Assembly (NCBI GenBank): GCA_937915285.1
Contig: CALDNG010000369.1
Span: 1-6,761, forward strand
Reading direction: 5' to 3'
DNA: 6,761 nucleotides
From: an uncultured Desulfomonile sp.
GTDB taxonomy: Bacteria; Desulfobacterota; Desulfomonilia; Desulfomonilales; Desulfomonilaceae
The first letter of the stretch is position 1; each line of letters starts with the position of its first letter. Both the position numbers and the translations under genes were made by a program. This document shows, one piece after another, positions 1 through 6,761 of the stretch. The notes under the pieces were generated by a model that did not search any database, had not been told where the DNA came from, and saw nothing but the letters and a program-made list of their open reading frames with translations.

Positions 1-433
1 CGAGCTTACCCGAATTCTCCTCTCCAGGAAGTAAAGCCGCGTGAATCATTGGTCCAAATCGGCTCTCTGATACAAACCAGTGCCCATTCAGGGATTCCTT
101 CATCGTAATGGCTTTTTCTGGACACACGTGATAGCAGACAGAACAGCCTTCACAAGAATAGCCATCTATTGTTAATGAATCGCTAATGGCTTCGTAACGA
201 CAAACTTCTGCGCAAATACCGCATTTCACGCACTTGTAAACATCAATTTCGGCCTTCACGCCGCCCCAGAATTCTTTTTTTTCCAGCATCTGCGGCTGAA
301 GTATGATGTGCAGGTCTGCCGCGTCCACATCACAGTCAGCCATCACCTTGTTAGTGGATAAAAATCCGAACGAGGCTGTCAGACAGGTCTTTCCCGTTCC
401 TCCCTTGCCACTAATGATCACCATTTCTTTCAT
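1..433 (-). CDS. MinD-superfamily P-loop ATPase with inserted 2x[4Fe-4S] ferredoxin domain (second of two; C-terminus cut by window edge)
   Basis: The visible 144 residues begin with a deviant Walker A loop, SGKGGTGKT (residues 8-16), which has the extra lysine (K10) of the MinD/ParA/Mrp class. A DCDVDAAD segment follows at 33-40. A bacterial-type ferredoxin insert has two cysteine sets, C68/C71/C74/C78 and C94/C97/C100/C104-Pro, enough for two [4Fe-4S] clusters. This order (P-loop, ferredoxin, rest of ATPase) defines the COG1149-type family; the Walker B half lies beyond the window. The ATG at 433 is favoured over the ATG at 424 because AGGA sits 8 nt upstream and the codon overlaps the previous gene's stop as ATGA, which suggests translational coupling. 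With its upstream paralogue it probably forms a heterodimeric, cluster-bearing cytoplasmic ATPase, as proposed for ORP-locus MinD proteins. Family is secure; the precise role is inferred. Confidence 0.93.
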   Translation of the reverse strand, partial: MKEMVIISGKGGTGKTCLTASFGFLSTNKVMADCDVDAADLHIILQPQMLEKKEFWGGVKAEIDVYKCVKCGICAEVCRYEAISDSLTIDGYSCEGCSVCYHVCPEKAITMKESLNGHWFVSESRFGPMIHAALLPGEENSGKL

Positions 434-1299
434 GATTCACTTCCTGTGGGTGGCTCAGGGCTCTTGTCAGTCAGCCTCTTGATGCTCTCAAAGATCTCGA
501 GGAATTTCTGGGTGTACCCAGGGTTGGTCCTTATCAACATGTTTCCCCGTGAATATCCCTCGGCTATCTTACGGTCGAAAGGTATTTCGGCGAGAAGATG
601 TATCCCGGAATCGGCGCAATACTTGTGAACTTCCCTGTCACCGATGTCGCTTCGGTTGAGGACCACGCCCATCGGAACACCCAACTGGCGGATGGCTTCC
701 ACCGCTATACGCAGGTCATGTAATCCGAAAGGCGTGGGCTCGGTAACCAGGATTACGAAGTCTGTTCCCTTGACTGTGTTAATCACTGGACAGGAAGCCC
801 CCGGGGGCGCATCAAGAATGGCAATCTTGTCCCTGGTGATCCTCTTTTTAACTTCCTTAATTAAAGGTGGCGCCATCGCCTCACCAATTCTGATGCGACC
901 CTGAACAAAGTCAACTTCTCCGGCATTCCCTGTCTCGACTACCCCGAGTTCACGCGGGGCCTCAGATATAGCCTTCTCCGGACATAACAGAATACATCCG
1001 CCGCAACCGTGGCACAACTCTGGAAAAGTCAGGGTTGTCTTGCCTATGACAAGAATGGCGCTGAAATTGCAAACCTCACCGCATTTCCCGCACAAATTGC
1101 ACTTCTCCGGGTCAACCAGCGGAGTAGGTAGTGTCACTGCGCTTGATTCATATATGTCCGGAGCCATGAGTACATGGCAATTGGGTTCTTCTACGTCACA
1201 ATCAAGAATCTGGGCGCGATTTCCCAGGGAAGCCGCAAGGCTTGTAGCGATTGTAGTCTTACCCGTTCCGCCTTTTCCGCTAGCTACAGCAATTTGCAT
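430..1299 (-). CDS. MinD-superfamily P-loop ATPase with inserted 2x[4Fe-4S] ferredoxin domain (first of two)
   Basis: This is a complete 289-residue protein, the normal length for the family. The deviant Walker A is SGKGGTGKTT at 7-16 (signature lysine K9), with LDCDVEEPN at 32-40. The ferredoxin insert carries C67/C70/C73/C77 and C96/C99/C102/C106-Pro. A Walker B-like strand, IAILDAPPG, lies near 159-167 (D163), and a VTEPTPFG switch-like segment at 185-192. No signal peptide or membrane helix is visible, so it is probably cytoplasmic. It starts 15 nt after the NifX-like gene, with AAGAG about 8 nt before the ATG, and overlaps the next ATPase gene by 4 nt. Known relatives sit in ORP and other Fe-S or molybdenum-related loci and are thought to couple ATP hydrolysis to cluster transfer or redox sensing. 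The client here is probably one of the adjacent NifX-like proteins; that is inference. Confidence 0.95.
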   Translation of the reverse strand: MQIAVASGKGGTGKTTIATSLAASLGNRAQILDCDVEEPNCHVLMAPDIYESSAVTLPTPLVDPEKCNLCGKCGEVCNFSAILVIGKTTLTFPELCHGCGGCILLCPEKAISEAPRELGVVETGNAGEVDFVQGRIRIGEAMAPPLIKEVKKRITRDKIAILDAPPGASCPVINTVKGTDFVILVTEPTPFGLHDLRIAVEAIRQLGVPMGVVLNRSDIGDREVHKYCADSGIHLLAEIPFDRKIAEGYSRGNMLIRTNPGYTQKFLEIFESIKRLTDKSPEPPTGSES

Positions 1300-1314
1300 T
1301 TTATAACTCTTGGT

Positions 1315-1674
1315 CTACCAATGGGCTTCGGCATTCGGCTTGTCAGCGAACCCGACTCCATCCTTCAGGAATTTCTGAATGACATCCTTAACCAGGCCCG
1401 ACTGGTCCGAACCGACCTTGATGCCGGCGGCCTGAAGAGCAGTGAAAGCATTCGGTCCGCAATGTCCTGTCAGAAGAACATTTACCCCTCTATCCGCAAG
1501 ACTCTTGGCAGCCTGTATTCCAGCCCCACGCATTGCATTAACATTGGTCATGTTATCTATGACCTCCAGGAGTTCCCCTTCGGTGTTTACAACCAGAATA
1601 AATGGGGCTCGTCCGAAGCGAGGGTCCATGGGGGAGTCAAGAGTCTTTCCATTGGCTGTTATTGCTATTTTCAT
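1315..1674 (-). CDS. NifX/NifB-C-domain (PF02579-like) metal-cluster-binding protein, 119 aa
   Basis: This is a small single-domain protein of the dinitrogenase iron-molybdenum cofactor family (NifX, NafY, NifB C-terminus, ORP). It opens with a MKIAIT beta strand, then the family hallmark LDSPMDPRFGRAPFILVV (12-29). LLTGHCGPNAFTALQAAGIKV follows at 67-87 and contains the only cysteine, C72. The RNase-H-like fold of this family holds or carries Fe/Mo-S clusters. A TAGGT-like ribosome site precedes the ATG at 1674. The gene sits 15 nt after another NifX-like gene and 15 nt before a ferredoxin-ATPase gene, so all belong to one transcript. No nitrogenase gene is visible, so a role in FeMo-cofactor synthesis is not implied. 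Either this protein or its neighbour could be the counterpart of the Desulfovibrio orange protein; the sequence alone does not decide. Confidence 0.93.
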   Translation of the reverse strand: MKIAITANGKTLDSPMDPRFGRAPFILVVNTEGELLEVIDNMTNVNAMRGAGIQAAKSLADRGVNVLLTGHCGPNAFTALQAAGIKVGSDQSGLVKDVIQKFLKDGVGFADKPNAEAHW

Positions 1675-1689
1675 TTTTATGTACCTACG

Positions 1690-2073
1690 TTAGAAGCCTC
1701 CACCGCCGCCACAAACCTGGTGTTGGGCTATCAGTTGGAGCTTACCGCTGAGCATTTCGTTAACAACTGATTGGACTGTCTCGCCCTCGGGGCCATAATA
1801 GACCTCGATCCCGACCTGCTGAAAACCCATGAGCGGTCTCATGCCTATGCCACCCACTATCAGGGCATGAGCGCCACTTCTATGCAGGATATTAACAGGG
1901 GCAAAACATCCGCCCTGCACGTGCGGGGGATTGTCCACCAGAGATACTTCCTTGATCTGTCCATCTTCGAGATGAATGAGTGTGAAAAGGTCGCAGTGTC
2001 CAAAATGTCCTGCTCTCATGGCTTCAAGGCCACCCGGCCTCATTGATGGAACTGCTATAGTCGTTACCGGCAT
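1690..2073 (-). CDS. NifX/ORP-like (PF02579-like) metal-cluster-binding protein with CGGGGGF tail, 127 aa
   Basis: This is a second NifX-family protein, diverged from its downstream neighbour. Visible family landmarks are TTIAVPS (4-10), AGHFGHCDLFTLI (21-33, where the neighbour has DPRFGRAPF), VDNPPH (46-51), and the core strand ALIVGGIGMRPLMGFQQVGIEVY (70-92). Cysteines are C27, C56 and C121; the chain ends in a glycine-rich CGGGGGF (121-127) that could be a flexible metal ligand or docking tail. The start is firm: AGGAG lies 7 nt before the ATG. The gene follows the Mrp gene after about 70 nt and precedes the second NifX-like gene by 15 nt. In Desulfovibrio, ORP of this family binds a Mo-S-Cu-S-Mo cluster and works with Mrp and MinD-type ATPases. 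The equivalent job here is an inference from gene neighbourhood and fold family. Confidence 0.92.
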   Translation of the reverse strand: MPVTTIAVPSMRPGGLEAMRAGHFGHCDLFTLIHLEDGQIKEVSLVDNPPHVQGGCFAPVNILHRSGAHALIVGGIGMRPLMGFQQVGIEVYYGPEGETVQSVVNEMLSGKLQLIAQHQVCGGGGGF

Positions 2074-2143
2074 TTTCCAACTCCTGTATGAGAAATTTAG
2101 TATTCAGCTCACAAGTTTCCGGGAATGTTCACGCTACCCCGTA

Positions 2144-3031
2144 TCACTTGGAAGAGGCGATTGATTCGTCAATGGCTTTCGCCAGGTTAATGAAGGCCAC
2201 ACTGCTTGGCGCGTCCGGATTTTCAAGAGTGAGCGGAGAGCCAGAATCCCCACCGATGACTATTTGAGGGTCAATCGGAATGGCGCCCAGGAAGGGGGTC
2301 TCCAGTTCAATGGAAGCCCGGTGACCACCACCTGTTTTGAACAGGTCTATCGCTCCACCGCAGTGAGGGCATGACATTCCGCTCATGTTTTCAACTATTC
2401 CAAGTATGTTCATATTCAGGGACCGCGCGAAAACCACAGATTTACGCGAATCCAGCAGAGCCACATCCTGGGGTGTCGTAACGATTACCGTCCACAGGGG
2501 CTGACCCATTAACTGTGCAATACTTAGAGGCTCATCACCCGTGCCAGGAGGGAGGTCGATGATGAGGTAGTCAAGTTCCCCCCAATTAACATCACCGATG
2601 AATTGCTGGAAGAGTGAATGTTTCATCGGCCCGCGCCAGGCTATAGGAGTGTCCTGATCCTGAACGAGGAAGCCCATCGAGATTACTTTGATACCGTTTT
2701 CCGACAATACCGGCTCCAGACCTTCAGCCGAAACATTGGGCGCAATGTGATCGACCCCAAGCATCTTGGGGACGTTTGGTCCATGAACGTCACCGTCAAA
2801 AAGTCCTACTTTCTTACCCATCGACGCCAATGCTGAAGCCAGGTTCACAGCAACGGTTGATTTACCGACCCCGCCCTTTCCACTCATCACCGCCAACCGG
2901 CATTTGATCCTGGATAGTTTTTGAAGTGAGCGCTCTTCAGCATGCTTGCGCTGAGTGTCAGAAGAACAGGAGGCAGATGATGAACAACTGCCACATGTTT
3001 GTTCTGAGCCGCATTGTGTTTCTTCGGTCAT
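2144..3031 (-). CDS. mrp: Mrp/NBP35/ApbC-family P-loop ATPase (Fe-S cluster carrier) with N-terminal Cys cluster
   Basis: This 295-residue protein belongs to the Mrp/ApbC/NBP35 family, dimeric ATPases that carry and transfer [4Fe-4S] clusters. The deviant Walker [11 protein letters not shown] is at 50-59, DGDVHGPN at 79-86, the Walker B region [11 protein letters not shown] at 156-166, and the cluster-bridging CPHC at 221-224 inside the family signature [12 protein letters not shown]. The N-terminus adds C7, C13, C16 and C22 (C-x5-C-x2-C-x5-C), recalling the N-terminal ferredoxin-like motif of eukaryotic Nbp35 but with shorter first spacing. The ATG at 3031 is chosen because AAGAGG lies 5 nt upstream; a 15-residue GTG extension (3076) has no convincing ribosome site. 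The position just ahead of two NifX-like genes matches the ORP loci of Desulfovibrio, where an Mrp protein is a complex member. It probably loads or matures the cluster on those partners (inferred). Confidence 0.95.
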
Positions 3032-3036
3032 TGTAG

Positions 3037-3042
3037 CCTCTT
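3037..3042 (-). promoter_or_regulatory. Ribosome binding site that decides the Mrp start
   Basis: On the minus strand AAGAGG is followed by 5 nt (CTACA) and the ATG at 3031. The only longer start, GTG at 3076, is preceded by TTCCGAATCTC with no purine-rich site. The resulting protein starts directly at the cysteine-rich segment. Confidence 0.7.
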
Positions 3043-3204
3043 GAAAAAAAGATTGAAATGGAGCCAAAAAGCCCACGAGATTCGGAATTAATAAATTATG
3101 CCGGCCCTAAAATCCAGTAACTTCGTTTATCAATGCGACAATCCGGGGCTTTAAAATTGGCCGCAGAAATTCTAACCGTTTGTAATACCATTGAAATAAA
3201 TGCA

Positions 3205-3287: not shown

Positions 3288-3614
3288 TCAGCCGGTCGGA
3301 TTCGATTTGAGATTCGCCAGTCGAATCTCCAGATCCCTTATTCTTTCACGGGCCTGAGATAATTCCTCCTGAATCTGCATGGTTTCATCTTGTACAGAAT
3401 CAGACCCGAAAAATTGACCTCTCTGTCCCCTTCCGGCGTTCCGCATCCCTGCTCCACGACCCATGCCGCAACCAGATGGCCTTCCACCCCGACCCAGACC
3501 ATAACCTGAAGCAGTTCCGCCAGCCTGCTTGTCTAGTACATTTAAGCATCGACCAGCGCCTCGTCCAGTCCTCGGCCCATTTCCAATCGGGCCAGTCTGA
3601 TCGAATCCAGGCAT
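3288..3614 (-). CDS. DUF5320-like small Gly/Arg-rich protein with C-terminal coiled coil, 108 aa
   Basis: The protein opens with MPGFDQTGPIGNGPRTGRGAG, the characteristic start of a widespread, uncharacterised family of small anaerobe proteins (DUF5320-like). A glycine/arginine-rich middle with only two cysteines (C23 and C49) runs to about residue 70. A charged heptad-like segment, roughly 76-104 (rich in E, R, Q and L), then predicts a coiled coil. Length and layout fit the family. The ATG at 3614 is supported by AGGAG 8 nt upstream; the in-frame TTG at 3638 would add eight untypical residues. Relatives are commonly found next to NifX-like and MinD-type ATPase genes, consistent with its place at the head of this gene set. 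It may be a scaffold, small partner or metal-responsive accessory; the function is unknown. It is separated from mrp by about 255 nt, so it could have its own transcript. Confidence 0.85.
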   Translation of the reverse strand: MPGFDQTGPIGNGPRTGRGAGRCLNVLDKQAGGTASGYGLGRGGRPSGCGMGRGAGMRNAGRGQRGQFFGSDSVQDETMQIQEELSQARERIRDLEIRLANLKSNPTG

Positions 3615-3622
3615 TTTTAGCT

Positions 3623-3627
3623 CTCCT
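3623..3627 (-). promoter_or_regulatory. Ribosome binding site of the DUF5320-like gene
   Basis: AGGAG, within a longer purine run GAGAGGAGAG on the minus strand, lies 8 nt before the ATG at 3614. It fixes that start over the upstream in-frame TTG at 3638. Confidence 0.7.
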
Positions 3628-3679
3628 CTCCCCGCCAAATTGAGCGGGATTCAGAAATAAAGTTTAACAGATGGTCTTG

Positions 3680-3819: not shown

Positions 3820-4169
3820 CTTTTGTAGTTTAAGCATTATTGGGGTTAGGCGCAATAGATATTTTTATTTTTTTGCGAGTAATTGTACGATTTAGTTTGG
3901 CTATTATCGCTGAAAATAGCTCAGTGATTGGATCACAGCCGGACAAAGAATGTTCACCAAACGCTTCGAGGCAGTCATGGACATGCGCCCAGCCGGAAGT
4001 TTGGCCGACGGTTTTACGATGTCCATGCCAAGGTAAACTTGACGATTGTTCGGTTGGGGGCTGAGAAACTTTTATGGTAACCTTTGAGTAAATCGGTTCA
4101 TGGAAAAATTAGATTCTGTTTTGGTGTTAGGGGATGTATTATTGTAGGTTAGTCTGAACATAGCATCCC
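3820..4169. other. Non-coding upstream region of the epimerase gene
   Basis: No convincing gene is seen. The left part (about 3855-3900) is very AT-rich. A 9-bp inverted repeat, CATGGACAT (3976-3984) / ATGTCCATG (4019-4027), spans a more GC-rich patch that differs in composition from its surroundings. A TATTAT box at 4137-4142, about 28 nt before the ATG, is a possible -10 for the epimerase, but the matching -35 (TTCTGT at 4114-4119, 17-nt spacing) is poor. A 74-codon open frame at 3840-4064 has no ribosome site and no recognisable motif, and is taken as chance. Confidence 0.5.
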
Positions 4170-5220: not shown

Positions 5221-5823
5221 GTCGCTAACGCGCCCCCATCAAGAGATCGAGATGAATTCCAAACAATATCTTAGAACAGGTTGATGATTGTACTTAATTA
5301 CACAGTACTTTAGCTGCGCAAAAACAAATATAGTCCGACCCTAACCCCTATACCCTCAGCCGGACTAAAAAACTGAACGATAATTCAGTTGATTTAAAAT
5401 TTAAAATGTAATGAAGACTTATCTCATGTGGCGTGAGGTTTTGTCAAACTATAAAACACTTTAATACCAATAACATAATTATATTAAATGGCTCAGCCTA
5501 TTCATGAAAAACTGCTTTATGTTAAGGGGTCCAACCTCTAAACATCGGAAGGTTGCCTTGAGACAGACTCATACCATGAAGAACCTTTGGTGTTACGGAT
5601 TTTTGCGACAAAGGCATGAGTAGAATTGCTACGCTTGTTCGATTGCATCAGGGTGTAAATGAACCGAACACTTTTTTTGGGCTTTTCTGGATAATCCTTT
5701 GAGGATGTCTAATACGGCGCAGATGACTCATGCTTCGTTTTGTGCTAGTTGTTTGAAACAAAAATCGCCGCTAAGGCTCACACTTGTTGGCTCTCCGTTT
5801 TCAGAGGCTCAAGCTGGATTACA
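5221..5823. other. Long AT-rich non-coding stretch with several small inverted repeats
   Basis: No gene is supported here. The base composition is clearly more AT-rich than the flanking genes. Inverted repeats seen are TAGTCCG/CGGACTA (5331-5337, 5361-5367), AACTGAA/TTCAGTT (5371-5377, 5384-5390), CAACCT/AGGTTG (within about 5532-5555), and a nested pair ACTCAT/ATGAGT with CCTTTG/CAAAGG (5567-5621). A weak G-U-containing stem before a run of seven T (about 5650-5678) could end a short transcript. The 84-codon frame at 5699-5950 overlaps the glycosyltransferase in another frame and is rejected. A promoter for the glycosyltransferase should lie here but no clear box pair is seen. Confidence 0.5.
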
Positions 5824-6714
5824 ATGGGATATTCCTGTTCAAAAGACATTGATAGGTCCAAAAAGACCGTACTGGTTTTATCGACCAGTTATCCTAATTC
5901 GAGTGATGACTGGTCCGGTATATTCATACATAAACTCAGTTCTGCTTTGATCGGGTTGGGATACCGAATTACGGTTCTGGCGCCATCAAACGGGGAATTT
6001 TATGGGGAACGGAGTTTTGATGGTGTAACGGTGAGGCGATTTTCGTATTTCTGGCCCCGTAGTCTTGAACGGTTGTGTTCTGGCGCTGGTGGCATTCCCG
6101 AGAATTTGAACAAAAGCACGCTTGCCAGGCTGCAGGTTTTTACAATGACGCTGGCCTTTTTCTTTCATGCCATGAGATCGTCGGCCAACACAGGAGTTAT
6201 TTACGCCAACTGGCTTGGTTCAGGAGTGGTCGGAGCGCTGGTCGGTCTTTTTAGAGGCATACCACTAGTAACCTCCTTCAGGGGTGATGATGGATACCTG
6301 GCGCGTGAGAGATTGTTGTGGAGGATTTTCACCAAGTTTGTAATCCGGCGATCCTCAGCGTTGGCCCCTGTCAGCGGGGAGTTAGCCGAAATATGCAAGG
6401 AGCTTGGAGCGCCGTCGGCAAAAGTTTTCACTCCTCGTTTCGGTGTGGACCTTGAGCTTTTTAGGCCTTCAGAAAGCCCCAAGAGGGCCGATGCCGGCGT
6501 CAGGATCATTTATGTCGGCAGCCTGATTCCCAAAAAGGGTGTCCAGGATCTGCTCCATGCCATAAGTGGCCAGTCGTTCAATCAGGCGATTCTTGACATA
6601 GTTGGCGAGGGTTTCTATGCAGAAGATCTTAAAAAGCTAGCCGGGAGTCTGGGAATATCATACCGGGTAAATTGGCGCGGTCTGGCTAGTCCGGATGAGG
6701 TATCCCGATTCATG
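5824..6714 (+). CDS. GT4-type (GT-B fold) glycosyltransferase, 3' end missing
   Basis: An open frame runs from ATG 5824 to the end of the true sequence: 297 residues of a protein usually about 380-420 long. The N-terminal domain begins KKTVLVLSTSYPNSSDDWSG (14-33), a typical GT4 acceptor-domain start, followed by the HKL helix. VTSFRGDD is at 149-156 and GVDLELFRP at 207-215. The donor domain starts with IIYVGSLIPKKG (228-239), then LDIVGEG (257-263). The sequence stops before the conserved EX7E motif, so truncation comes from the contig end, not mutation. It has no signal peptide; such enzymes act at the cytoplasmic membrane face, transferring sugars to lipid-linked or polysaccharide acceptors. 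Start choice: GGA lies 5 nt before ATG 5824, and the frame is closed by a TAG at 5746. With the epimerase it suggests a surface-polysaccharide locus. Donor and acceptor cannot be assigned. Confidence 0.88.
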
Positions 6715-6761
6715 AGATCGGAAGAGCACACGTCTGAACTCCAGTCACGAGTGGATATCTC
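6715..6761 (+). other. Illumina TruSeq adapter plus index (sequencing artefact, not genomic)
   Basis: The last 47 bases start with AGATCGGAAGAGC, the universal TruSeq adapter start. They continue through the known read-1 adapter to its CCAGTCAC end (finishing at 6748), then an index-like GAGTGGAT and ATCTC, the start of the flow-cell primer part. In the glycosyltransferase frame this yields the peptide RSEEHTSELQSR, a familiar contaminant in protein databases. The first A could be genomic or from A-tailing, so the junction is 6714/6715 within one base. Everything from here should be trimmed. Confidence 0.97.

Follow-up and report, generated by a model that had tools for sequence, protein, structure and literature searches.

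A TruSeq index adapter fused in frame to a truncated glycosyltransferase gene at the end of a Desulfomonile contig

Results

Genes and features of the window

The window, i.e. the whole stretch of 6,761 nucleotides analysed here (contig CALDNG010000369.1, from an uncultured Desulfomonile sp.), begins with a gene cluster on the minus strand (2-3076), which comprises two ferredoxin-domain ATPases of the MinD type (the start of the window truncates the first), two proteins with Nitro_FeMo-Co domains, and an ATPase of the Mrp/NBP35 type. A DUF5320 protein is encoded beside the cluster, at 3288-3638, and parts of the cluster region show DNA-level similarity in relatives. At the right end of the window, the open reading frame starting with the ATG at 5824 encodes a glycosyltransferase of the Glyco_transf_4/Glycos_transf_1 type (Pfam) and runs into the last 47 bases of the contig, which are a TruSeq adapter.

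A candidate small RNA is found on the minus strand at 5319-5447, with a promoter-like element, a variable hairpin, a terminator-like hairpin, and a T-rich tail. The promoter-like element consists of TTGACA (5447-5442, minus), followed after 17 bases by the -10-like hexamer AGATAA (5424-5419, minus). Among the 17 copies displayed, the first hexamer is shared by 16 (the remaining copy is cut by a contig end), and the second reads TATGGT in several relatives and is more variable or shifted by one base elsewhere. The terminator-like hairpin (GTCCGGCTGAGGGTATAGGGGTTAGGGTCGGAC, 5365-5333, minus) is a near-invariant 33-mer with a G-rich loop, after which the T-rich tail follows. When up to 3 mismatches are allowed, 14 of the 18 genomes in the family of L121, the nearest named relative (the same 18 genomes make up its order), carry the 33-mer, against 0 of the 24 other genomes of the class; the reversed 33-mer, used as a control pattern, gave 0 matches. 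The alignment of 15 copies (excluding L127, the same copy as L232, and L234, which a contig end truncates) shows seven stem pairs conserved throughout, with G-U or A-U at one of them. Immediately outside these seven, the pair alternates between A-U and U-A; the one beyond it is U-A, G-C, C-G, A-U or G-U in 11 copies and U-U in 4. The outer pairs of the hairpin covary. The folding of the window copy gives a z score of -2.77, with 2 of 200 shuffles folding as well. A search of the window against Rfam with E values of up to 1 gave no match, and none was found at the element in the loci of 10 relatives either. That the minus-strand candidate is a regulatory RNA would be our guess.

Identity of the adapter

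The 47 bases at 6715-6761 were proposed in the earlier note to be TruSeq adapter, with a readable index followed by ATCTC, and both parts of this proposal hold. The constant 34 bases (6715..6748, plus strand) read AGATCGGAAGAGCACACGTCTGAACTCCAGTCAC and match the Illumina TruSeq index (read-1 3') adapter with 0 mismatches, while a match to this 34-mer with up to 3 mismatches is seen in 0 of 200 dinucleotide shuffles of the window. The 13-base common adapter start (AGATCGGAAGAGC) is exact at 6715-6727, its single occurrence in the window; at a tolerance of 3 mismatches the 13-mer would be no evidence, with 2.02 matches expected by chance, but the match here is exact. The part specific for the read-1 side is likewise present and exact, through CCAGTCAC up to 6748. 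Directly after it comes the kit-type index GAGTGGAT (6749..6756, plus strand), which is index 23 of the TruSeq LT set. The contig then stops after ATCTC (6757..6761, plus strand), the first 5 bases of the flow-cell (P7) segment ATCTCGTATGCCGTCTTCTGCTTG. The adapter points outward and finishes with the last base of the window.

The Klebsiella phage EI record MN106245.1 shares 40 of 40 bases with window positions 6722-6761, the same index included, and continues past the last base of the window through the complete flow-cell segment into poly-A; the continuation is also visible in many IMG/VR loci. Because the phage record, which provides an independent instance of the adapter with this index, has the same last 40 bases followed by the flow-cell segment and poly-A, the index and ATCTC are no chance reading. 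Unlike that of the window, the adapter of MN106245.1 is internal to a 'complete' genome that goes on with other sequence, and it lacks its first 7 bases.

Adaptors are counted by NCBI among the contaminants of genome submissions (PMC10898089). In respect to its exact sequence, outward orientation, position at a contig end, index, and flow-cell start, the window is the same as other assemblies contaminated with TruSeq adapter, and no difference in kind was found; its adapter by chance continues the reading frame of a gene. The stretch 6715-6761 is an ordinary laboratory (sequencing) artefact and no real feature, and the identity of the adapter is beyond doubt.

Damage to the glycosyltransferase gene

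The genomic 5' part of the gene (5824..6714, plus strand, 297 codons) is truncated by the adapter. The open reading frame continues in frame through the adapter and is open to the window end, which gives the protein an adapter-coded tail of 15 residues, RSEEHTSELQSRVDI (6715..6759, plus strand). The Pfam match to Glycos_transf_1 breaks off at the adapter junction, having reached profile position 92 of 172. A database search returned a near-identical protein of 405 residues (P0001), encoded on another NCBI contig of 138,893 bases. Of the 312 window residues 299 match P0001, namely the 297 residues up to the junction and the following R and S. Past residue 299 the window reads EEHTSELQSRVDI, in place of the 106 residues of P0001 that begin with SDILCLPSHTEGSPNVVKEAM. 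The chimeric C-terminus claimed in the earlier note is thus confirmed, the divergence from the homologue being seen against P0001 and at the protein level only. The claim of about 15 false residues is right as to the length of the in-frame tail and too high as to what is false: since the real protein likewise goes on with R and S, the false residues are the last 13.

The same note understated the harm to the protein, which besides its false tail lacks the 106 real residues by which P0001 is longer. P0001 has both domains, and the complete C-terminal domain is absent from the glycosyltransferase of the window. Within the lost part lies an E-x7-E stretch (EGSPNVVKE), a catalytic signature of such glycosyltransferases. 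The larger damage is the lost C-terminal domain and not the false tail.

In the relatives, the loci listed by tblastn at the junction (15 rows, corresponding to 12 distinct loci, three of them listed twice) all continue coding and are free of adapter, and the DNA alignment between the window and L121 stops at 6715. When the DNA of P0001 was sought among the genome contigs, the best match was L121, at 65%. Relatives of the glycosyltransferase with E <= 1e-100 are carried by 17 of the 18 genomes of the L121 family, the best again at 65%. Another glycosyltransferase with 65% identity (P0009, 298 residues, JGI), encoded on a different contig, ends with EVARIMK approximately at the junction residue of the window.

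Adapter in public records

The 34-mer occurs in IMG/VR at least 121 times, in at least 120 stretches. In 120 of these occurrences it points outward, with 0-213 bases left up to the end of the retrieved locus (the distances refer to the locus, which in some cases is shorter than the contig, e.g. 280 bases of a 36,870-base contig for L069). In 64 of the at least 121 occurrences it is followed by an index of 6-9 bases and then by ATCTCGTA, and in many loci the index, the flow-cell segment, and poly-A all follow the adapter. Among all loci gathered, the universal adapter is found within 295 bases of the locus end it points to in 119 of 122 occurrences, and 3 are placed otherwise. The combination of adapter with the same index as in the window (CTCCAGTCACGAGTGGATATCTC) gave 0 hits in the IMG/VR scan, and the whole 47-mer is present in 0 of the 360 loci gathered in this analysis. 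Mutual comparison of the flanks of 120 adapter loci yielded two weak matches (67-72%), neither reaching the junction.

The one IMG/VR exception (L013, IMGVR_UViG_3300028829_003071) has the same 34-base adapter as the window, but with the index TGACCA and fused to phage sequence, with 1,257 bases after the adapter. At the position of the adapter (3889-3922) related contigs carry a different sequence, of 113 bases in L215 by a count made by eye. L013 is a false internal join, in which the virus sequence resumes after the adapter at a homologous site further on.

With megablast, the 47 bases match 17 of 50,697 phage records (the identity is >= 99% for 16 of them and 95-99% for the other, with a query coverage of 64-85%), 2 of 5,426 E. 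coli genomes (one exactly over 34 bases, one at 97%), and 0 of 72,556 plasmid records. Adapter-ended contigs and false joins, the two effects expected in the earlier note for the source assembly, are both seen in other public records. A survey of adapter-ended contigs was not found in the literature, as judged by the titles of the matches listed.

Some of these records carry names. In the Staphylococcus phage Andhra (NC_047813.1, L200) the TruSeq adapter, with the index ACAGTG, occupies 1-54 and 18492-18533, and the right-end copy is followed by 13 unmatched bases. Terminal inverted repeats of 155 bases are annotated and published for this phage (PMC5362749), and 42 bases of each are adapter-derived. 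At the end tested, the match of related phages such as Pontiff and Pike to Andhra starts right after the adapter and runs to their own last base. The internal adapter of MN106245.1 (L201) lies at 2001-2069, with the index and poly-A, and overlaps an annotated gene start; it is likely a false join. In E. coli SK0832 (NZ_AP046542.1, L226) an exact adapter is present between cheY and cheB (1501-1534, locus coordinates), and in E. coli p1-49 (NZ_AP040990.1, L227) a 97% adapter (1501-1533, locus coordinates) adjoins bglG, annotated as an incomplete pseudogene; both chromosomes are deposited as 'complete'.

False protein tails

In 49 of the at least 121 IMG/VR junctions, 100 or more codons without a stop, counted without the need for a start codon, lead up to the adapter, and in 14 of these 49 a stop codon follows soon in the frame of the adapter. 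A protein search with the last 40 residues of the L018 protein gave E <= 1 for at least 7,951 of 8,000 scored candidates. Among the 120 listed matches that were inspected, RSEEHTSELQ is found in 119 and SEEHTSELQS in the other. No mention of adapter peptides was found in the open-licence papers searched.

Discussion

Origin of the fusion

We consider that a TruSeq index adapter was fused to the glycosyltransferase gene most likely by read-through of a short insert, with the adapter branch kept by the assembler, and we give this reading a probability of about 0.9. Sequencing of a short library insert would have continued beyond its end into adapter, and the assembler would have kept the resulting branch, perhaps where local coverage was low. 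Directly observed are the exact adapter, the divergence from P0001 at the junction, the placement at the sequence end facing outward, and the recurrence of this arrangement in many other public contigs. As R-S follows in the real protein too, the true breakpoint is at 6714 or, by a few bases at most, to its right.

The earlier note had also concluded that the assembly was made from untrimmed reads, which does not follow: quality-controlled, trimmed reads are reported in the paper on phage Andhra (PMC5362749), and the deposited genome bears adapter at both ends. Adapter left over after trimming may therefore also be the source.

An unlikely alternative is that an adapter-carrying PCR primer annealed at a partly matching site in the gene and was extended, which would give a chimeric molecule with a fixed junction and, consequently, several supporting reads. 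The 3' end of such a primer is the complement of AGATCGG, and the R-S with which P0001 continues can be encoded by AGA TCG, so genome and adapter may have as many as 6 bases in common at the junction. Shared bases would favour mis-annealing, while read-through needs none. The first codon of the relatives at this site is, however, AAG, AGA, AGG, CGC, CGT, CGA or GCC, and because of this variation the shared stretch at 6715 could be anything from 0 to 6 bases. Shared bases were also sought at other junctions, by IMG/VR scans for second copies of four contigs, and for 2 of the 4 no second copy was found in IMG/VR. The junction of L036, read from L214, shares 3 bases with the adapter, whereas that of L013, read from related contigs, shares 0. 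As three or more shared bases are expected by chance at about 1 in 64 junctions, a test of two junctions is too small to dismiss mis-annealing.

The reading of the 47 bases as genuine genomic DNA that resembles adapter has a negligible probability and found no supporting evidence: an exact adapter, an index, and a flow-cell start stand together at the sequence end, P0001 lacks the tail and already contradicts this reading at the protein level, and the 34-mer is missing from 394 of the 395 genomes scanned in the phylum of L121 (the remaining one has it, exact and facing outward, at bases 6-39 of a contig).

Consequences for the protein and for databases

In-frame adapter, as at the end of this contig, produces tails such as RSEEHTSELQS or DRKSTRLNSSH, which pass as protein sequence. 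Very probably, adapter-coded tails form a large, self-similar class of false protein sequence in databases (the at least 7,951 candidates above), and adapter at the end of a phage record both corrupts and marks the true ends, as for 42 of the 155 repeat bases of Andhra. The strings RSEEHTSELQS and DRKSTRLNSSH offer cheap filters for contaminated records. As for the Desulfomonile contig, the annotated glycosyltransferase is unfit for use; trimming of the contig should leave 6714 as the last base, and the gene should be regarded as a 5' fragment.
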